The notes under the pieces: generated by a model
What the model was told of the DNA's origin: nothing
Seen by the model: the letters and a program-made list of their open reading frames with translations, nothing else
Databases searched by the model: none
Position numbers and translations under genes: made by a program
Origin: a virus
Direction: 5' to 3' (one strand)
DNA: 31,591 nucleotides
IMG/VR virus record: IMGVR_UViG_3300037485_000684
Span: 1-31,591 of that record
Shown: one piece after another, positions 8,840 through 19,106 of the stretch
Layout: every line of letters begins with the position of its first letter
Numbering within the stretch: the stretch's first letter is position 1

Positions 8840-9865
8840 CTAGTAGTTAATCATCGTATCAAAAGCCGGAACGCTCGCCCCGTAGAATCCGACACGATCT
8901 TGTTCAGTTGTAGCACCTTTATACCCAGGCGGTGAAAGAATATCTTGATTCGACTTCAAGATAAAAGACATTACTGTACCCATTCGATTAGTAATATTAC
9001 TGATTGGAATATCGAATTCATTAGCCTGGATATTGGCTTTAGTTGATCCAATAGTGAATCCAGTTGATGCTATAGAATCACAAAGATTATCAGTATTATA
9101 AGCATCAGCACTCGTTGGTGAACTGTCATCACTATTTGAAACATATAGTTCTATATTATAAGCATTTACTGTATTTATAGTAGAAACACGCGTCCACAAT
9201 AATGCTGAAATATAATTTTCCAAACCAGCCGGAACTTGTACACTAATTAAGGCTCGATACTCATTATGCTGTCTATTGTAATTCGGTGATGGAGAAAAGT
9301 ACGTCCATACATGTCCTACATACCCGAATCCACTACTAAGACTCTCAATATCACTAACTAATACCCCGCTCGTGTTGAACACCCTGACTCTTGTATTTAT
9401 GTTAGCACTGAGAATCTTGAGTGGGTAACCTTGCGTAGCAATAGCTAGAGCCTTCCGTACTTCCCACCAATCAATATGCTTGACCTCATCACCAATTGCT
9501 GGAGCGTTCGTGAACGTAAAACTTGTTCCTCCATCACTAAATATATCCTCTCTAAGCCTAAGGCGATTTATTGATTCTTGTAATGCCGTCCAATAACTTC
9601 CTTTAATCACGTGAGCATGAACGCGATCGCCAGCAGCAACATAGGGTGGAGTAGTGGTTGTTGAACCTTCACGCTGGTAATATCTTTTCCGTACCTCAGC
9701 GAAAAGCTGATTAACTCCTGATCTGTCATTGATCTCAACCTGAGTAGGAGGATTGCTGTAATCACTCTCTCCTGCTGTAAGTAGAAAAGGCAGATTAGCA
9801 TTCCATTTATAACGGTCGTCTCCGCTGCTCCCGATTCTTGGCGACCATATTATTGAATCGGTCAT
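8840..9865 (-). CDS. Putative tail or receptor-proximal structural protein
   Basis: A 341-residue protein that I cannot assign to a family. The start is ATG 9865, which shares ATGA with the stop of the tail hub gene. It opens with MTDSIIWSPRIG, has a mixed middle part with Trp-rich segments (DWWEVRKALAIA) and a C-terminal half rich in Ser, Thr and Asn with beta-strand character. There is no signal peptide or enzyme motif. Being last in the tail module, after tape measure, two small distal proteins and hub, suggests a distal tail or receptor-contact part. Confidence 0.55.
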   Translation of the reverse strand: MTDSIIWSPRIGSSGDDRYKWNANLPFLLTAGESDYSNPPTQVEINDRSGVNQLFAEVRKRYYQREGSTTTTPPYVAAGDRVHAHVIKGSYWTALQESINRLRLREDIFSDGGTSFTFTNAPAIGDEVKHIDWWEVRKALAIATQGYPLKILSANINTRVRVFNTSGVLVSDIESLSSGFGYVGHVWTYFSPSPNYNRQHNEYRALISVQVPAGLENYISALLWTRVSTINTVNAYNIELYVSNSDDSSPTSADAYNTDNLCDSIASTGFTIGSTKANIQANEFDIPISNITNRMGTVMSFILKSNQDILSPPGYKGATTEQDRVGFYGASVPAFDTMINY

Positions 9866-12204
9866 GCGTACACCATAGCGGGTGCAGCCCACTTAATGCC
9901 AAGAGCTTCATCAGAATCAGCTGTAAGAACCTGCCCGTTAGTGCCTACACCCAGCTTTGCTAAAGCCGTATCATAAGTAAGTAGATCACCTTTCGTGTCT
10001 AATGGAATATTAGCGGTTCCACCACTACCTATTGTTGGTCCATGATCCACGTCTAGTTGATTATCTGGAGTAGCTCTTTTACCTATCTGTTGATTTGTTA
10101 CTACCTTCACAGGATCAGAAACCGTAGTAACAGGCAAGGCGTCAGGCTCGACATCTCCTGTGTCACTCATCCAGAAATCAGCGAAGACAGTTACTGTTCC
10201 AGCCAAGGACGGAAGCATAGTATCAAAAGCAATAGTATTACCAGAAATATCATAAGACACTCCCTGTAGAATAGATTTGATACTAGCTATACTCAGATAG
10301 TCATTCAGCGTGAGAGTAGCACAATCGAAATTCTCAAGCTTTAGCTTAGTAAGGAACGTATTGAACTTAGATAATCTAAAAATATTACTGTATCTATTCT
10401 TCCAGAACGTAAGGCTCTTCTCTACAAGTGATTTATGTTGATAGATATAGAAATCGTATTCCTGTTTTCTGATTCCAAATAAGTCTATATTGTTTGTGTA
10501 CACTACTTTCTTTTCTTTATCATTAAGATAAGAATCTTTATACTTACCTGTAAGATAAGTTACTACATCTTCTATACTTGTGAATCCTAGTTCCAGAGTC
10601 TTCATCTCAATATCAGCAGCGCTTATAGTAGCGTCTGAGCTCGGCTCCACAGACAGGTATTTAATCTTTACTGTGTCACCTGAAATCACTAATCCGCATC
10701 TTGATTGCCAAGCGATCTCACGAACTGCATCAATAGCGTCTTTTTGATCCAAGATAGCAAAGTTGCAAGGATACTTATCCACGAGTGTTTTGACGGCAGT
10801 AAAGGTTGTTGTGTCTGGCGTCAGATCTGTGAAATCATTAAGAATAGTTTCAATGCACTCTGCACTATTATCGCTCTTACTACTAACTAAAGTAACCCAA
10901 ATTTCTTCATCGTAACCTTGCAGTTTTAATGGAGTCCCAAAGGTTATTGTAGTAGGAGTGAGCGTGGCATCAAAAGTTTCATTACTTAAGTCAACAGTAT
11001 ATAATGAAGATGGTATAATAACCAATTTACCATCTTGCTTACCTATGATTCTAGTAACACTGGTACTTGGATAGTAGTTAGCAACATATATATCATCGTC
11101 AACACCATCTACCTGTGTTACTATACAATCAATATTGAATCCAGTTAAGCCCCACGGCACCGGAAAAAAGATCATAACAAGCAAGGCTGTTGTAGTCGGT
11201 TGTGAGAGAACTGCACCTGAGTAATCCCAGGTTGCTCGTCCCACTTTAGCAACATCATCAATCTGATCTGTATCTGTTAATAGAACAGTAGCGCCAGTTT
11301 TATCGGTCCAAGCATATACGAACCAACACTTATTACCTTCTTGTTTCCAGCAGTAGTTGATTCTATGCTCGTCACTAGCTATTGTACTGTAACACCACAT
11401 GCCTACTAAATCAGCAGTTTCGTCTAACCAAACAACATGCGGGTCATCATAGTCAGGATCAGCGATATGATTGAATGCTCTGTCTTCGATACTTAGATTT
11501 GTATATCTTGAGATATTGAAATCAGTTACAGTGAACTCATTATCGCTCATCGTACCTTCAATCAATATTCCTAAAATATCAACGGTTATTGTACCAGTCT
11601 GCGGGAATCTTGTACCATCTTCAACAGTCATTGTATCTGGAGCATTTATCAAATCATAGTATTGAGTGAGCTTAGAAACCGGTTTGCGCTGAACCAGAGC
11701 AGCAGGAACATCTCTAGGTTTGCCGAACACAACAGGCCAACGCTTTTCTTCGTCATTAAGGATTGTGAACGTTCCCACGTCGGTGCTATTGATCTTACTA
11801 ATAACCTCAAAACTAAGCTTACGTTCACCTTCACTCCAACTGATTGTACCACTCACCTTACCAGTGAGAACCGTTATGAGATCAGCTTGTAACAAACCCT
11901 CGAAATGATGATAAATAGTACAATCCTTACCTTCGAGAACATTAGCTTCAATAATCGCTCTAAATCCTTCACTATCTACGTCACTAAGTTCTACACTCAT
12001 GCTACTGATCTCGCTAATCCCGTCTACGGACTTCTGACTAGCAAGAGCACCTAGACTAATAATAGAACCCTTGGCACTAATAGTGCCAAGGGTCAAATCT
12101 TTAGATGCGTAGTACGCACCTAATAGTTCAATAATTATGATGGGTTCAACCCCGTTGAGTTTGGCGACTTCTGCGATCGCAGAGGCGGTTAATGTCCTAG
12201 ACAA
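9862..12204 (-). CDS. Tail hub / tail tip protein
   Basis: A 780-residue structural protein. The N-terminal 180 residues resemble phage tail-hub or baseplate-type proteins: alternating strands around ISEISSMSVELSD and a typical segment WPVVFGKPRDVPA. The C-terminus ends in TKGDLLTYDTALAKL and GTNGQVLTADSDEALGIKW, a module common at the ends of virion proteins. The start is taken as TTG 12204, since AAGGAG is six bases upstream; the in-frame TTG at 12219 has that site inside the gene. It overlaps the preceding gene by eight bases. It probably closes the tail tube and links to fibres; precise orthology is uncertain. Confidence 0.65.
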   Translation of the reverse strand: MSRTLTASAIAEVAKLNGVEPIIIIELLGAYYASKDLTLGTISAKGSIISLGALASQKSVDGISEISSMSVELSDVDSEGFRAIIEANVLEGKDCTIYHHFEGLLQADLITVLTGKVSGTISWSEGERKLSFEVISKINSTDVGTFTILNDEEKRWPVVFGKPRDVPAALVQRKPVSKLTQYYDLINAPDTMTVEDGTRFPQTGTITVDILGILIEGTMSDNEFTVTDFNISRYTNLSIEDRAFNHIADPDYDDPHVVWLDETADLVGMWCYSTIASDEHRINYCWKQEGNKCWFVYAWTDKTGATVLLTDTDQIDDVAKVGRATWDYSGAVLSQPTTTALLVMIFFPVPWGLTGFNIDCIVTQVDGVDDDIYVANYYPSTSVTRIIGKQDGKLVIIPSSLYTVDLSNETFDATLTPTTITFGTPLKLQGYDEEIWVTLVSSKSDNSAECIETILNDFTDLTPDTTTFTAVKTLVDKYPCNFAILDQKDAIDAVREIAWQSRCGLVISGDTVKIKYLSVEPSSDATISAADIEMKTLELGFTSIEDVVTYLTGKYKDSYLNDKEKKVVYTNNIDLFGIRKQEYDFYIYQHKSLVEKSLTFWKNRYSNIFRLSKFNTFLTKLKLENFDCATLTLNDYLSIASIKSILQGVSYDISGNTIAFDTMLPSLAGTVTVFADFWMSDTGDVEPDALPVTTVSDPVKVVTNQQIGKRATPDNQLDVDHGPTIGSGGTANIPLDTKGDLLTYDTALAKLGVGTNGQVLTADSDEALGIKWAAPAMVYA

Positions 12205-12571
12205 TTTGTTCTCCTTCAATCTCTAAATTTGCCGAACAGAAATCACCCTTACTCTCAGTAACAACCTCAACTGGATTCGTTAGAATCTTTATCTTCCAAA
12301 TCAGCCCATCGTAATCAGTATATTTAAGATACTCTGAACCATAGGCTTCAACGAAGTCAAGTAGTGCGAGTGCCTGCGCTCTAGGTATTGATTCGAAATT
12401 CAGAGCTTTAGCAATTTGTATTGGTCCACGAATGTACGTTATGATTTGACCAGACATATTCTTCTTCGTATTGATTTGGTGTCGGTATGTGTCACTATCG
12501 CCAATTAGTGGATTCTCTAAATCCAGAGTAGAATCCACTGAACCAGTATAGGGGTACTCGAACTTTATCAT
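12197..12571 (-). CDS. Small distal-tail protein, paralogue B
   Basis: A 124-residue protein. It aligns end to end with the product of the gene just upstream (12580-12954), also 124 residues: both start MI-x3-YPYT, share L-x-NP-x-IGD, and have a KY-x-DY block near residue 80-88 and a Cys near the end. AGGAGG five bases before the ATG gives a strong start. The position between tape measure and hub is that of distal tail (Dit-like) or tip assembly proteins. The family name is uncertain, but the tandem duplication is clear. Confidence 0.65.
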   Translation of the reverse strand: MIKFEYPYTGSVDSTLDLENPLIGDSDTYRHQINTKKNMSGQIITYIRGPIQIAKALNFESIPRAQALALLDFVEAYGSEYLKYTDYDGLIWKIKILTNPVEVVTESKGDFCSANLEIEGEQIV

Positions 12572-12579
12572 ATTGCCTC

Positions 12580-12954
12580 CTAGCTGGTCATGGTAACCAA
12601 ATCAAAACTGGTTTCAAACAATGGACAGATTAGGCCAGGTATTGTCTTAAAGATTATATCTTCTGTCGTTATGATTCCCATCCAAGTTACAGACTCATAA
12701 TCAATATACTTAATAATCTTGCCTCTTGATGCTGCGAACAGCACTATTAGTTCAGCTTTCTTCGTTGCACTGATTTCTGAGAACGTAAGACTCAGACTGG
12801 TCGAACCCAACCAGAGGCCAGCTTGTTGAAGCTGACCTCCAGTTGAGCGTCGAATAAGATTATTTTGATCTAGCCTCTGGATATCACCTATATTAGGATT
12901 TCGTAATACTACACTAATAGTAGGACTCGTGTACGGATAGGATAATGTTATCAT
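12580..12954 (-). CDS. Small distal-tail protein, paralogue A
   Basis: A 124-residue protein, first of a tandem paralogous pair. Its ATG overlaps the stop of the tape measure gene as ATGA, so it is co-translated with it. Shared blocks with its neighbour are MI-x3-YPYT, L-x-NP-x-IGD, a GQ turn and KYIDY near residue 85. No catalytic motif is seen. Directly behind the tape measure gene one expects the distal tail protein that joins tube and hub, and this is the best guess. Confidence 0.65.
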   Translation of the reverse strand: MITLSYPYTSPTISVVLRNPNIGDIQRLDQNNLIRRSTGGQLQQAGLWLGSTSLSLTFSEISATKKAELIVLFAASRGKIIKYIDYESVTWMGIITTEDIIFKTIPGLICPLFETSFDLVTMTS

Positions 12955-15900
12955 GCAAGGCTCAACGTTCCACGTCTGATTGCACGTCTGAGTTCCTTGC
13001 CGATTGCAACAACATCAGTCTGAACAGAACCAGAAGCTTGCAAACTGACATTAACATTTCCTACACTATTGTTATTCACAATCCCTCCACGAGCATAGCC
13101 TTTGATTCCGCTGTTCATAGCAAGCAACTGACTATAATATTTGCCTGTTGCTGCTCGATTCATAACGAACTCGCCTGGACTTAGAACAGCATGTACTGAA
13201 TCCTGCGCATAGCCACCTCTTGCGAAATCATCCGGTCCTAATGGCCTCGTTAATGAACTCAAATCCATTGGTCTCTCAAGAATCAATTTATTGATCTTTT
13301 CTTCAATAGCAACACGTTGTTGCTGTGTACTCAAAATTACTTGGCTCTCCGTCTTCTGTAAAGTTATAGCGGCTTGAATTTTAGTATTAGCCTGAACACG
13401 TTGCTGTTCGAGAGCATTAAGATCTCTAGCTAAAGTAACAGAATCAGAAGCTTGATTCGCAACTGCTTGCAGCATATTTTGTAGATTAGGATTTCTTCCT
13501 AAAATCGCCCGCAAATCCTGAGTCTGGATTCTATTAAGAGTATCGCTTGATCTATTCTGAGCCTCACCAAAGGTCTTAGTCAAGAGCTTGGCATTTTTAG
13601 CTATATTAGGCAATACACTTGTATCCTTATCTTCAAGCAACTTCTTCAAATCTTCCTTAAGCTTCATTACGGCATCTTTTTCTTGACTTGGGAATTCAGA
13701 CATACTAACGAAAGTCAAGGAACTAAGGATTTGCTGTAGTTCAACGAAGTTAGCTCGCTGCGTCGCTAAGTTATCTACAGCAGCTTTCTTTTCTTTAACC
13801 TGCAAATCAATAAGTGAATTAAGTGTATCTTTCTGTTTTAATAATTCCGTATTATAGTCTTTAAGTGCTTGAGTCTTTTGATTGACATCAAACTGTTTTT
13901 GTTCGTTAGCAAGTAAATCTAAATAACGTTGCTCGTTAATGAGTTTGTCTTTATCCTTACCTTTGAACTGTTGTTCAAGGCTCATTAACTTTTTAATCGC
14001 ATCTTGTCTTTCCTTAAATGAACTCTCTCTAGCATCAGAAGTAGGCAGTTCAAGAATCTTACTGAGAGGCGTGTCTGAAACCATCTTTTTAGCGTCAAGA
14101 AAATCTTGTAAATCTATCTCGCGCTTGGCTTTTTCCGCAAAGAGATCATCTTCAACCTTTTTACGTTTGGCGTCCGCTGCTTCTTGAACTTTAGCAAGTC
14201 TATCAGCTAATCCTTGCATATAAGTAGTATAGTTAGTAGTTTGATTCTTAAGATTCTTAGTTTGTAAATCAGAGATTTTACCTTCAAACTCTTCTCTACG
14301 ATGCTGAATCTCTAGTTCAAGTTCTACTCTCCTATCCTTCAACTCCTTTAATTTAGCTTGCTGATTATCTCGATCATTATCTCCTAATCGATCAATCTTA
14401 TCTTTATATTTCTTAGCTTCAATATACTTGCCTTTAGCAATAAGAGCATTATATTTATCATAAAAGGTTTGACGCTTATCTAAATATTTTAAATCACCTG
14501 TCAGGGAAGCATGTTTTATCTGCTCATCTAATTGATTTAATTCCAAAGCAGATTTACGTTCAAACTCAACTCTATCTGATTCTACTTTCGGGCGCTGCTT
14601 ATTCTTCTTAGCGTCTTCTTTCTCGGCTTGAGCAATGAGTTTCATCATTGTTTTACCAAGATCAGCAGCTTCTTTAGCTGCGTCTTTGGCGTCTTCAAAC
14701 AGGCCAAGTCCAGCTGCCTTTTCAGAATAAGTCACCATCTCGTCTATACGTTTTTTATATGCGTTAATCTTTTCTTCCGGAAGTAGATCCTCAATATTGA
14801 TTTCAAACTGTTCACTCTCGATATTCTTTCGTAAATCTCTGATATTATCTGCAAACTTTTTTGTAGCTGCTTCATTATCAGCTACAGATTTATCAATACC
14901 GTCGATAACTTTTTGAATCAAATTACCAGTATAAGTTATTGCTTTCTCTAAATTCTTTACTAATTTATCGTGTACTTTCTCCAGAGTATTATATTCTTTA
15001 ACATATTGAGCAATAACCTCTGTAGAACCTTTCAATAAAAGCCGTACACGTTCGTCATTAGCTTTCTTTTCAGCACTAGCAATCTTGTCAATACTCGTGT
15101 ATGCTGTCTGTTTGAAAGCATCAGAATTGGCTTTGACCGCTGCATTTATTCTTTCAAGCTCTCTACGAGTAACAGTAGTAAGATACTCAACGGCAGTAGC
15201 GAAAAGCATGATCTTAGTAACTGCTAATCCAAAGGGATTTACTAAAGCTAATTTAAGCAACAGACCAGTGACTGCTACAATCGCAGCACTCAATACACCA
15301 GTCATTAAAGAAGCTAAGACTTTAATTGTATTATCCAAATCACCAAAGATATTTATTATTTTACTGATTTTATCAACCAAACCACTTCCGAGTTCAGTGA
15401 ACATATTCTTGATTTTATTAACAGTTACCTGAACATTTTTACCACTAGACTCCATAGCGATTTCTGTAGCTTTATCATAAGATTGCATGCCTTCTGTGAT
15501 CTTACTCAAAACCTCATTATACCGTTCTGCTGATGCACCTGTCAAACCCATCACGCCGGTCAAAGCGCGAACGTTATTGAACATAGTAGCAAGTTCAGTA
15601 GAACTGCCTTCTGTAGCTCTAGCTAGTCTTTGTAACGTTCCACCGAGGCCATAAATCTTAATAGCAGCTTCTGCGGAATCAACTCCAAGGATTTCACCAA
15701 AGGCTTTCTTCATATCTCTTGAAGGCTTAAGTAATTCAAGAATAACACCACGAATCTGTGTTATAGCTTCGTGCGCGCCAACGCCTTTTTCAGTAATAAC
15801 TGAAATAGCCGTACCTAATTCAGCCATGCTGATTCCTAATTGGCTGGCTGGTACTGCTATTCTACCAAATGTATTCGCAAGTTCACTAGCTTCAACACGA

Positions 15901-17285
15901 CCGATTTCAATTGTCTTGAACAAGAGGGCTGAAACATTTTTAGTTTGTGAAACATCTAATCCGTAAGCTTTCATTGCGCCTGACAAAAGATTTACGGCAT
16001 CAGTGCTAGTAGATACTGTTACAGTAGCGAACTTCGCAGCTTCCGCCATGAACGTAAATAATTCTGGACCTTTGGCAATTTGGTTAGATACTGCTTTATA
16101 AGCGGCAGTAGCCTCATCCATTAAATCAATACCCCAAGCGTCTGAGATACCTCTTAAGCTCTTAGCAAAAGTCTCATTACTTAATTGGGCTTCTTGGTTA
16201 ATGGTTCTGATTCTACTAATCTGAATCTGAAAATCTATTGCAGTCTGAATACCAATTTGCAAAGCATTTATCATACTTGTCAAGGCTTGATGTGCTAACT
16301 GAATCGTCAATATGCGTTGCATATTCTGCCACGTTAAGGTGAAATCTTGTGTCCGCTTTTCAGTAGCCGTTAAGTTACGTTGCAGATTATAGAATTGCTT
16401 ATCTGCTCCACTACTTACGGCAGCTAGAGCAGCATTCTTATCTTTCGTTTTGGCTAATGTAGAATCATATATGCTATTGAGTTTCAGTGCTTGAGCATAT
16501 TGCTTCTCTAAATCAACCGAACGGGCTTTATCAGTAGCAATCATAGCAGCATTCATTGCTTGCGCTCTTGATTGTGTCTTCAACATTACGTCATCGTATT
16601 TAGCATTAGCTTGTAAAGCAAATGTGTGCTGCTTATCATAGTCAATTTGCTTTTGTATGTTTGCTAAATCATTACTCTTGACAGCGAGCGTCTGAGTTCT
16701 ACCTAAATTACCTTGAGCCTTTTGAACCTTGACTAAAAGATCCTGGACTCTGCCAAGCTCACCTGTAAATGCCGAGAACTGGCCTTTACCTACTTGAGAC
16801 CAGATTCCTTTAACGTCGTCAGCAGCAATCCTATTCTTTGCTACAAACTCTGTTACTCTGGCTATCGAACGCTTATAAGCATAAGCTTCTTCAGGCGTGG
16901 ATGAACTAAGATCAACACCCTTCTGTAAAGAAGAACCGACTGATTTTGCTTCTCTTTTAGCCTGACGGCCTAATTGTAAATCTTTTAATCTAGCCTGTTC
17001 CTCGGCTAGACTGCTAAGAGCTCTTTTAGTTTCGCTTGCACCAATTGTTACTAATCGCAAGCCTTTTTCAGTTTGCTTGAGTGTAAGATTAACTTTTACA
17101 CCAGCAACCTGTACGTTACTTAGAGAGGCAGAAAGTAAATCACCAGCCTTATCAAATTGCACACTTGCTCTACCAGCTTGCTCAACAGCTATCCCGTATT
17201 CTGTAAAGAACTTTAGAACCTTATTAAATCCAGCACCTAAAGTTTCATCTACTTTCATGCCTATACTGATGAGATCTTCGTTCAT
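12951..17285 (-). CDS. Tape measure protein
   Basis: A 1444-residue protein, the longest in the window. Residues about 370-640 carry the TP901-type tape measure core, including VEASELANTFGRIAVPAS and ELGTAISVITEKGVGAHEA. Hydrophobic segments follow at about 655-715, then about 600 residues of Lys/Glu-rich coiled coil. Near residue 1365-1395 is the AVLSPGEFVMNRAATGKY signature often found at tape measure C-termini, followed by a Gly-rich stretch. GAGG eight bases upstream supports the ATG. It sets tail length and is probably ejected with the DNA. At about 0.15 nm per residue, the usual rule, the tail would be about 215 nm. It follows the tail chaperone genes as expected. Confidence 0.93.
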   Translation of the reverse strand: MNEDLISIGMKVDETLGAGFNKVLKFFTEYGIAVEQAGRASVQFDKAGDLLSASLSNVQVAGVKVNLTLKQTEKGLRLVTIGASETKRALSSLAEEQARLKDLQLGRQAKREAKSVGSSLQKGVDLSSSTPEEAYAYKRSIARVTEFVAKNRIAADDVKGIWSQVGKGQFSAFTGELGRVQDLLVKVQKAQGNLGRTQTLAVKSNDLANIQKQIDYDKQHTFALQANAKYDDVMLKTQSRAQAMNAAMIATDKARSVDLEKQYAQALKLNSIYDSTLAKTKDKNAALAAVSSGADKQFYNLQRNLTATEKRTQDFTLTWQNMQRILTIQLAHQALTSMINALQIGIQTAIDFQIQISRIRTINQEAQLSNETFAKSLRGISDAWGIDLMDEATAAYKAVSNQIAKGPELFTFMAEAAKFATVTVSTSTDAVNLLSGAMKAYGLDVSQTKNVSALLFKTIEIGRVEASELANTFGRIAVPASQLGISMAELGTAISVITEKGVGAHEAITQIRGVILELLKPSRDMKKAFGEILGVDSAEAAIKIYGLGGTLQRLARATEGSSTELATMFNNVRALTGVMGLTGASAERYNEVLSKITEGMQSYDKATEIAMESSGKNVQVTVNKIKNMFTELGSGLVDKISKIINIFGDLDNTIKVLASLMTGVLSAAIVAVTGLLLKLALVNPFGLAVTKIMLFATAVEYLTTVTRRELERINAAVKANSDAFKQTAYTSIDKIASAEKKANDERVRLLLKGSTEVIAQYVKEYNTLEKVHDKLVKNLEKAITYTGNLIQKVIDGIDKSVADNEAATKKFADNIRDLRKNIESEQFEINIEDLLPEEKINAYKKRIDEMVTYSEKAAGLGLFEDAKDAAKEAADLGKTMMKLIAQAEKEDAKKNKQRPKVESDRVEFERKSALELNQLDEQIKHASLTGDLKYLDKRQTFYDKYNALIAKGKYIEAKKYKDKIDRLGDNDRDNQQAKLKELKDRRVELELEIQHRREEFEGKISDLQTKNLKNQTTNYTTYMQGLADRLAKVQEAADAKRKKVEDDLFAEKAKREIDLQDFLDAKKMVSDTPLSKILELPTSDARESSFKERQDAIKKLMSLEQQFKGKDKDKLINEQRYLDLLANEQKQFDVNQKTQALKDYNTELLKQKDTLNSLIDLQVKEKKAAVDNLATQRANFVELQQILSSLTFVSMSEFPSQEKDAVMKLKEDLKKLLEDKDTSVLPNIAKNAKLLTKTFGEAQNRSSDTLNRIQTQDLRAILGRNPNLQNMLQAVANQASDSVTLARDLNALEQQRVQANTKIQAAITLQKTESQVILSTQQQRVAIEEKINKLILERPMDLSSLTRPLGPDDFARGGYAQDSVHAVLSPGEFVMNRAATGKYYSQLLAMNSGIKGYARGGIVNNNSVGNVNVSLQASGSVQTDVVAIGKELRRAIRRGTLSLA

Positions 17286-17295
17286 GGCTGGTACC

Positions 17296-17829
17296 TCACG
17301 ATTGTATTGTAGTGATGTATTTACTCAGTTTCGGTATCCTTGATTTCAGATTCCTTTTTATATAATCTTTGAATCTTTGTTCACCATAAGGAATCGCACC
17401 CCATTGACCTTCATTATACTTCCACTGCCAGACCTTTATATCGAATCTAAAAGTGAATACTTGATTACTGAATGACCCAAATTTCAATATATAAGAACTT
17501 TCACCAGCCTGACGACCAGCCTTCATACTTCGCCAAAGTTCTTTTCTGAATTTTCCATCCATACCAAAAGCCCCTCGTTTGGGGCCATTTGCACTAGCAC
17601 TGATGAATGATTGTATGGCAGATCCTAATTTTGCTTCTTTAGCTAGTGGGACTGCTGATGCTGCACTCATACCAGTATCTATATGAACCGTACCAGTATA
17701 GATGATAGCTTCAACAAACTCACCTGCTGCTTCTCTCCAAAGCTTCTTCATGGCATTATATAAATCACGTCTATATTTATCGGAATCAATCTTGACTCGT
17801 TTGATCCGCTTAATTGTCAATTTAATCAC
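17296..17829 (-). CDS. HK97 gp10-like tail/neck protein
   Basis: A 177-residue basic protein. VHIDTGMSAAS around residue 49-59 fits the DTG-x-L/M-x-x-S signature of HK97 gp10-type head-tail joining proteins, and its ending (AIPYGEQRFKDYIKRNL) also fits that family. The start is GTG at 17829 with AGGAGG five bases upstream, a strong site. In most siphophages a gp10-like gene lies before the tail tube gene. Here it sits between the tail chaperone and the tape measure, so it may do a different tail job. The preceding terminator hairpin could lower its expression. Confidence 0.55.
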   Translation of the reverse strand: MIKLTIKRIKRVKIDSDKYRRDLYNAMKKLWREAAGEFVEAIIYTGTVHIDTGMSAASAVPLAKEAKLGSAIQSFISASANGPKRGAFGMDGKFRKELWRSMKAGRQAGESSYILKFGSFSNQVFTFRFDIKVWQWKYNEGQWGAIPYGEQRFKDYIKRNLKSRIPKLSKYITTIQS

Positions 17830-17842
17830 TGTACCCTCCTAG

Positions 17843-17875
17843 AAAAATAGGGTAGCTTGGTTAGAGCTACCCTAT
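17843..17875 (-). terminator. Terminator or attenuator hairpin after the tail chaperone
   Basis: On the minus strand ATAGGGTAGCT (17875-17865), a 7-base loop and AGCTACCCTAT (17857-17847) form a perfect 11-bp stem followed by TTTT (17846-17843). The stop codon of the frameshifted chaperone (17869-17867) lies in the 5' arm. The hairpin is inside the late operon, just before the gp10-like and tape measure genes, so partial termination would set their dose relative to the tail tube. Confidence 0.8.
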
Positions 17876-18546
17876 CTTCGCGCCCAATATTTTGTATAGT
17901 TCAATCTGTTCTTCTCGTCTCTCATTATCTCGAATCATTGAGTAAGCAAGGAAATCAGCTTGTATGATTGCATTGTTATCCTCCCAGGCGTTTTTAGCGC
18001 CGGGAGGTAACAATCCAAACACTTCGCAGGCTCGCCAAGTAGCGTACTTTTCAGTACGATACTTTGGTATTACTGTTTGACGGGCAGAACCTGCTGACCA
18101 GCTAAAAAAGATTTCGTAGCCTGTTCAATCTTTTCTTCGTTCAAGCCACAAGCAGTGATTACCATATCTACAATCATTCGCAGTTCAAGATTTGAGAAAC
18201 CCGATTTCGTGAGTTCATCCGCGTAATTCTTCCACGTGGTTGAATCACTCATATTAACCGTTTCCCATTCCAAATTAGGCGTAGCAGACAATGATTTCAA
18301 CACCATCCAATGAACACGATTAGACGCCCAAATGTCAAGCTTTTTCAAGTAGTCTGAATCACGAACGTCCACGAACCGTTCTCCACCTGGTTTCAAGACT
18401 CCTGGTGCTTCTGGTTTGGGACATAACTTATCAAACTCATCGTAGTCCAGAACTGGTTGGGCTTTGAAAACAATGTTTTCATTACCTTTTGGAATCACAA
18501 GAACTTTAGGTTCCATTGCATTCACTACATGACCATTGATCTTCAT
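17867..18546 (-). CDS. Tail assembly chaperone, long form made by -1 frameshift
   Basis: A 226-residue fusion predicted from a -1 shift on T TTT TTA (18109-18103). Residues 1-148 come from the zero frame; the next 78 codons, from AGC at 18103 to TAG at 17869-17867, are open in the -1 frame and contain a well-formed segment (TWRACEVFGLLPPGAKNAW followed by EDNNAIIQADFLAYSMIRD). There is no ribosome site or start codon suited to a separate gene. Long siphophages make their tail chaperone as a short G-type and a long G-T-type product just upstream of the tape measure gene, exactly this position. The extension fills what would otherwise be a 240-base gap. The shift rate cannot be read from sequence. 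Confidence 0.85.
18070..18546 (-). CDS. Tail assembly chaperone, short form
   Basis: A 158-residue protein without transmembrane or enzyme motifs, with an acidic body and a helical C-terminal half (SGFSNLELRMIVDMVITACG). It lies directly behind the tail tube gene and before the gp10-like and tape measure genes, the normal place of the G-type tail chaperone that coats the tape measure before tube growth. GGCAGG upstream supports the ATG at 18546. It ends 11 codons behind the slippery site, so it is the majority product when no frameshift happens. Confidence 0.75.
   Translation of the reverse strand: MKINGHVVNAMEPKVLVIPKGNENIVFKAQPVLDYDEFDKLCPKPEAPGVLKPGGERFVDVRDSDYLKKLDIWASNRVHWMVLKSLSATPNLEWETVNMSDSTTWKNYADELTKSGFSNLELRMIVDMVITACGLNEEKIEQATKSFLAGQQVLPVKQ
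18103..18109 (-). promoter_or_regulatory. Programmed -1 ribosomal frameshift site, T TTT TTA
   Basis: On the minus strand the heptamer T TTT TTA falls in the X XXY YYZ phase of the zero frame (S146, F147, L148 of the short chaperone). It is one of the most slip-prone -1 sequences known. It lies 11 codons before the zero-frame stop. A small GCAG/CTGC stem follows within about 20 bases, too weak to be called a firm stimulator. Confidence 0.85.
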
Positions 18547-18572: not shown

Positions 18573-19106
18573 TTAAGTCTGCGCGCTACGAGTAATTGTC
18601 GGAGCCAGCGCATTACACTTACCAGCACAACTGATCGTACCAGCACGTAAATCATGATCCAAAGATTCATAACGGAAATCAGGGAACAAGATCACTTCTT
18701 TATCACCGCACGTCGAAGGAACTGGCGCGTAGGTGAGTTCAATATCCACGGCATACGGACGGCAAGCATCAGAATCCGAACTCGCCCAGCCAGCTGCCGG
18801 TCCAGTATTCTTAAGAGCATCTTCAGCACTAGGAGCACCAGAGCTTGCGCCCTTGATGTATTCCCAAGTCAAACTGAAAGACACTTCCATCGGAACCTGA
18901 TCGCCTTCTTTGATTTCATCCAAATTGCCACGGTCCAAGGTATAGACAATATTCTTCTTTTCAGAATATGTCAAGTTACCTTCACCAACTACGATACTGA
19001 GTTCATTCGCAGTAGGTGTCGTACCATCAATCAACTTGATGGTAGCGTATTTCAAGTCAATCTGAGCGGACACGATTGACCACGGTCGGGCTAACAGAGC
19101 TTTCAT
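18573..19106 (-). CDS. Major tail tube protein (probable)
   Basis: A 177-residue protein with beta-rich character: N-terminal strands, a GEGNLTYSEKKNIVYTLDRG segment and a Gly/Ser loop, ending with TITRSAQT. Its size and its place between tail terminator and tail chaperone match siphophage tail tube proteins. AGGAGA precedes the ATG. The codons are richer in G and C than in the neighbouring tail genes, as for the coat gene, which fits high expression. It starts with MKALLARPWSIVSA, closely like the coat and scaffold N-termini. Several cysteines near the C-terminus (for example CAGKC) are unusual for a tube protein. Confidence 0.72.
   Translation of the reverse strand: MKALLARPWSIVSAQIDLKYATIKLIDGTTPTANELSIVVGEGNLTYSEKKNIVYTLDRGNLDEIKEGDQVPMEVSFSLTWEYIKGASSGAPSAEDALKNTGPAAGWASSDSDACRPYAVDIELTYAPVPSTCGDKEVILFPDFRYESLDHDLRAGTISCAGKCNALAPTITRSAQT

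Follow-up and report, generated by a model that had tools for sequence, protein, structure and literature searches.

Does the short gene upstream of the tape measure gene in this uncultivated virus end at its stop codon for every ribosome, or do some ribosomes slip back by one base shortly before that stop and read on in an overlapping frame? The record comprises 31,591 bases, and we refer to this whole stretch of DNA as the window; all features located in it below lie on the minus strand. We consider, with a probability of about 0.88, that this virus, like phage lambda, produces its tail assembly chaperone in two lengths (G- and GT-type) through -1 programmed ribosomal frameshifting.

Layout of the two reading frames

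The zero-frame gene (18070..18546) encodes 158 residues, the putative short or G-type chaperone product; it is conserved in 98 distinct sequences and its stop is codon 159. The slip site T TTT TTA (18103..18109) lies in phase within the codons TCT-TTT-TTA, i.e., S146-F147-L148. From there, the -1 frame provides an extension of 78 codons plus a stop (17867..18103), the T-type domain, recognized in the sequence and in the alignment of relatives. The opening codon of the extension, AGC, reuses the A of the slip-site TTA, and its stop occupies 17869-17867; reading after the slip gives SWSAGSARQTV...KILGAKIG, and the zero-frame N-terminus joined to the -1 extension makes a fusion of 226 residues. 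This frameshift layout had been proposed from the sequence alone and, when recomputed, the phase of the heptamer, the 78 open codons and the 226 residues proved exact. The further claim that the extension has no start of its own also stands: the scan of the window's ORFs gave no ATG, GTG or TTG that leaves at least 60 codons in it, and the earliest GTG and TTG codons come about 28-31 codons in. T TTT TTA had been called an established -1 slip heptamer, and it is indeed described as such, as U_UUU_UUA (PMC5009743).

Across the 29 window genes, in-phase XXXYYYZ heptamers occur 20 times in 9,665 codons. The one at 18109 is the only one of the 20 whose -1 frame continues more than 60 nt beyond the stop of its gene, and at none of 9,376 random in-gene points of the window is the -1 frame open for 78 codons.

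Relatives and the switch of coding frame

Searches with the zero-frame protein returned 8 loci and searches with the extension 12. In the alignment searches, 165 and 167 places matched, all of them in IMG/VR, and 80 of each were kept; merged and de-duplicated, the kept places make 98 distinct sequences, the window counted among them. Every one of the 178 locus entries with both halves places the extension at -1, and an in-frame fusion of the halves occurs in none of the 98 distinct sequences. Three loci have no extension, and each of these ends at, or a few bases from, a contig edge. The sequence-only reading had named stops in the -1 frame, or a broken heptamer, in relatives as what would speak against a shift; the frame is open in 178/178, and T TTT TTA is present in 76 of the 98 sequences. 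The conservation is deep, since the zero-frame half is only 28-54% identical to that of the window across relatives. Nothing matched in a tblastn search of 50,697 phage records with the zero-frame protein and the extension of one relative, and the GTDB genome contigs searched yielded no confirmed relative. Because about 100 environmental relatives preserve the same layout, the arrangement is, on this comparative evidence, almost certainly a real but familiar phage device; the protein family that carries it is newly described.

The conserved motif YAxWRxCER lies nearly always 63 nt downstream of the slip site, and the 93 sequences with this spacing between slip site and YAxW were compared to locate the change of coding frame. 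In the -1 frame, stops occur at many codons ahead of the slip, among them -8 (51 sequences), -4 (11) and, as the last, -3 (1), and from the slip site through codon +29 there are none in any of the 93. Zero-frame conservation holds up to F-L and drops after the Leu codon, with a stop of variable position, and -1 residues are conserved right from the slip site (SWSG...PK.RT). Difference rates in the extension by codon position are 0.32, 0.21 and 0.62, the third position varying most. Since -1 stops are absent from the slip site through codon +29, conservation changes frame there and third positions vary most, the alignments indicate that the extension is translated, with the slip site as its starting point. 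As far as sequence comparison can establish it, then, the -1 frame is coding from the slip site onward, and selection acts on the slip site itself.

Variation at the slip site

Besides the 76 sequences with T TTT TTA, two of the 98 have T TTT TTG. The other sites are T TTT CTA (8 sequences), T TTT ATA (4), T TTC TTA (2) and T TTC TTG (2), and T TTT GTA, T TTT CTG, T TTT CCA and G TTT TTA occur once each. About one-fifth of the relatives thus do without the full heptamer, and it is therefore not required everywhere. Choice of TTA for the slip-site Leu is nevertheless strong, at 77 observed in 96 vs. 15.3 expected from per-genome Leu codon usage, and the excess includes genomes above 50% GC, where TTA makes up 0-15% of Leu codons.

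The loci with variant sites are L005, L008, L058, L083, L126, L129, L130, L135, L145, L156, L158, L159, L162, L169, L173, L175, L176, L178, L180 and L040. In the tree, a single sister clade of 17 rows holds most of the variant sites, and inside it T TTT TTA and T TTT ATA can be close sisters (L128 and L175); the pair L083/L158 and L040 fall outside it. What hardly varies at the slip site is T followed by a Phe codon (T_TTY), L040 with G_TTT being the exception. The codon after Phe is often rare (CTA, 0-5 per thousand in GC-rich loci), and at variant sites it is usually NTA.

To judge from these sequences, tRNA-Phe could re-pair at -1 on T_TTY and the next tRNA mostly could not at the variant sites: because they read T TTT CTA/ATA/GTA or T TTC TTA/TTG, only the Phe tRNA would re-pair well, and the sister clade with such sites is what sets this system apart from the usual kind. 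It is possible, if rather doubtful, that the variant-site phages rely on slippage of one tRNA only (Phe) when a slow codon follows, which would be “hungry-codon” slippage put to programmed use. If this single-tRNA reading holds, TTTTTTA in the window may be one state of a site with the invariant core T_TTY. Caution is due with the A of NTA, which is partly forced by the Ser/Thr codon of the overlapping -1 frame. Where the preceding codon is GTT, a slip on G_GTT_TTT one codon earlier could be an alternative to Phe-only slippage. Either way, the family is a natural collection of about 100 versions of one frameshift site, and for some of these versions the textbook two-tRNA mechanism should not work.

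Signals around the slip site

Upstream of the heptamer, many relatives carry GAGG about 10 nt before the slip site, whereas the window has AGG only, a weak SD-like element (18120..18122) that ends 10 nt before the heptamer and pairs with the anti-SD at about -2.5 kcal/mol. Among relatives, Glu at codon -7 is encoded by GAG in 37 of 48 cases vs. 23.2 expected, and an SD-like 4-mer precedes the slip site in 55% of relatives vs. 17% in the background.

Downstream, window RNA folds better than shuffled sequences (z -3.0 to -3.6), and a predicted stem with a nested hairpin (18026..18094), beginning about 8 nt past the heptamer, is a possible local stimulator. RNAalifold and windowed fold energies revealed no downstream structure common to the family. 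Some tailed-phage frameshifts seem to be without stimulators, according to the Atkins review (PMC5009743). Within the extension there is also an imperfect long palindrome, GTTACCTCCCGGCG-CTAAAAA-CGCCTGGGAGGATAAC (17984-18019), which codes for LLPPGAKNAWEDN; the local fold here is strong (z about -5 for the window at offset +60), and relatives do not share it.

At the far end of the extension, a 15-bp hairpin with a T-rich 3′ arm (17843..17879), terminator- or attenuator-like, straddles the -1 stop and precedes the next gene. Relatives show an enrichment of strong hairpins no more than about 40 nt from the -1 stop (18 of 83 non-redundant sequences), and for this reason the stretch between the chaperone and tape measure genes may be a point of control for transcription or RNA processing. 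As a family-wide terminator past the -1 stop, a T-run hairpin was found in only three sequences.

Gene neighbourhood and protein family

The tape measure gene (12951..17285) encodes a tail length tape measure protein of 1444 residues (phrog_23013, E 3.9e-29). Between it and the chaperone gene lies a gene for 177 residues (17296..17829) with no family match; the label “gp10-like”, which the sequence-only reading had given it, finds no support in Pfam or PHROG. Directly upstream of the chaperone gene, another gene for 177 residues (18573..19106), again with no family match, is by its position a candidate for the major tail protein. The order candidate major tail protein, chaperone, extra gene and tape measure is the same in L003 and L005, and in both of these the gene between chaperone and tape measure is of no recognized family (L003 5720-6316; L005 5665-6156). 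Elsewhere in the window, perfect sigma-70-like hexamers, TTGACA-18-TATAAT with 12 of 12 matches, lie within the tape measure gene (15545-15516), and strong terminator-like hairpins are found directly after the major head protein gene (20318-20291) and near the start of the tail gene 9862-12219 (12094-12066).

Pfam and PHROG searches with the two halves of the window protein gave no family match, and its search against the PDB and solved structures gave no usable one. The zero-frame protein is modelled with an alpha/beta N-terminal part (mean pLDDT 88.6) and the extension as two helices (mean pLDDT 86.9), for which a fold search found nothing. Weak Phage_TAC_5/XkdN-like matches appear in 3 of 73 family members (Phage_TAC_5 E 0.02-0.023). 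Position and architecture suggest a chaperone function, and direct family matches are weak.

For the structure model, the top viral match in Foldseek is a 152-residue protein of Bacillus phage Staley (E 5.5e-3, prob 1.00), and annotated TACs are among the weaker matches. The length of this target is matched by two genes of Staley in the neighbourhood of its tape measure gene. Profile comparison selects Staley_49 as the counterpart and rejects Staley_53; because it favours the former over the latter, the Foldseek target is presumably Staley_49. Comparison of the window family with the cultured-phage pair by hhalign gave E-values of 1.9e-5 and about 4e-4 for the two halves. The -1 frame of Staley_49 contains YIWLDICERYGLNP, which resembles the window family's YAIWRACERFGI.PP. 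The heptamer A AAA AAC is found in phase four codons ahead of the Staley_49 stop, and MaeS has it as well. As a control, the profile of each half was run against 136 stop-to-stop ORFs of 60-400 codons from 50 kb of Staley, and each independently ranked its own member of the overlapping -1 pair first, by about 60-70 times in E-value.

Phages Stahl and Stills and the Microcystis phage MaeS share the -1 layout of Staley, and among these four phages the predicted fusions have 214-216 residues (216 for Staley_49/50). Staley_49/50 and their equivalents, QJT70410/QJT70409 in MaeS, are annotated as two hypothetical proteins. Staley, Stills and MaeS thus appear to have an unannotated shift at A AAA AAC. 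In Stills, an annotation for a frameshifted tape measure chaperone sits on another, downstream gene pair; since it is this different pair that bears the chaperone label, the annotation may be misplaced. The gene pairs concerned are at L182 28120-28769, L184 1501-2150 and 2635-3390, and L183 1501-2144.

Alternative explanations

Two ORFs in different frames would also result from a single gene broken by a sequencing error or by decay, and in one sequence an ordinary frameshift would look alike. The identical split in 98 distinct sequences, none of them fused in frame, makes this explanation practically negligible. The -1 ORF might instead be a separate small gene whose own start lies within the overlap or just ahead of it, translated by internal initiation or by stop-start coupling, and the GTG and TTG codons about 28-31 codons into the extension would offer it starts. 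However, 49 of 96 sequences have no start that leaves even 35 codons, relatives have no internal start codon in common, the conserved -1 residues already begin at the slip site, ahead of the candidate starts, and the slip site is conserved at the nucleotide level, all of which renders a separate gene very improbable.

A shifted message could also arise before translation, by transcriptional slippage, given that polymerases can slip on runs such as the six T of the window site. Relatives argue against it, because their runs of four T (CGT TTT ATA, GAT TTT CTA, GCT TTC TTA) and even three (AAT TTC TTG) are too short for usual slippage; the constant phase and the SD-like element upstream point the same way, and we hold this origin to be quite improbable, although the window itself keeps the full run. 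Finally, the frameshift may be real and the protein no chaperone but some other part of the tail or virion that is made to a small extent in a longer form. Family matches are weak, and other phages do have coat and tail proteins that are extended by frameshifting (PMC5009743), but the position before the tape measure gene, the size, the short and long forms, the weak TAC_5/XkdN-like matches and the annotated TACs among the weak Foldseek matches all favour a chaperone. We judge this alternative unlikely.

Comparison with known systems

Under the preferred reading, a -1 ribosomal frameshift between two forms of a tail assembly chaperone, most ribosomes would terminate at 18070 and release the 158-residue chaperone. 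A minority would pause at U UUU UUA, slip back by one base and read on to 17867, and the slipped product would have 226 residues, the shared N-terminus followed by a helical C-terminal domain. The two forms would be made in a fixed ratio, as in lambda. If their roles follow those of lambda gpG/gpGT, the tape measure protein would be coated by the short form, and the major tail protein would be brought in by the added domain. For this phage, we infer the production of both proteins, their ratio or the shift efficiency and the details of tandem slippage.

Lambda gpG/gpGT is like the window in its short product and its rare -1 product with a second domain, both upstream of the tape measure gene. 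It differs in that there is no detectable sequence relation and in gene order, since H follows immediately on G/T in lambda and a further gene intervenes at this point in the window; the lambda slip site is G GGA AAG and that of the window T TTT TTA. With the window, a chaperone family whose known members come nearly all from uncultivated phages would join the conserved G/GT frameshift of Xu, Hendrix and Duda, as this is cited in PMC5009743.

The heptamer itself is identical to U_UUU_UUA of HIV-1, with unrelated genes and stimulators, and the HIV-1 site shifts by tandem or single-tRNA slippage (PMC5009743, PMC11818727). With Phage_TAC_5/XkdN-like proteins (PF08890, phrog_389), the likeness consists of the weak profile matches in those three relatives, and the window protein itself has no match. 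The Bacillus phages Staley, Stahl and Stills and the Microcystis phage MaeS, on the other hand, are distantly related to the window in both halves and share the -1 arrangement, but with the slip site A AAA AAC instead of T TTT TTA. Through them, the family is connected to unannotated frameshifts in cultured phages of Bacillus and Microcystis.
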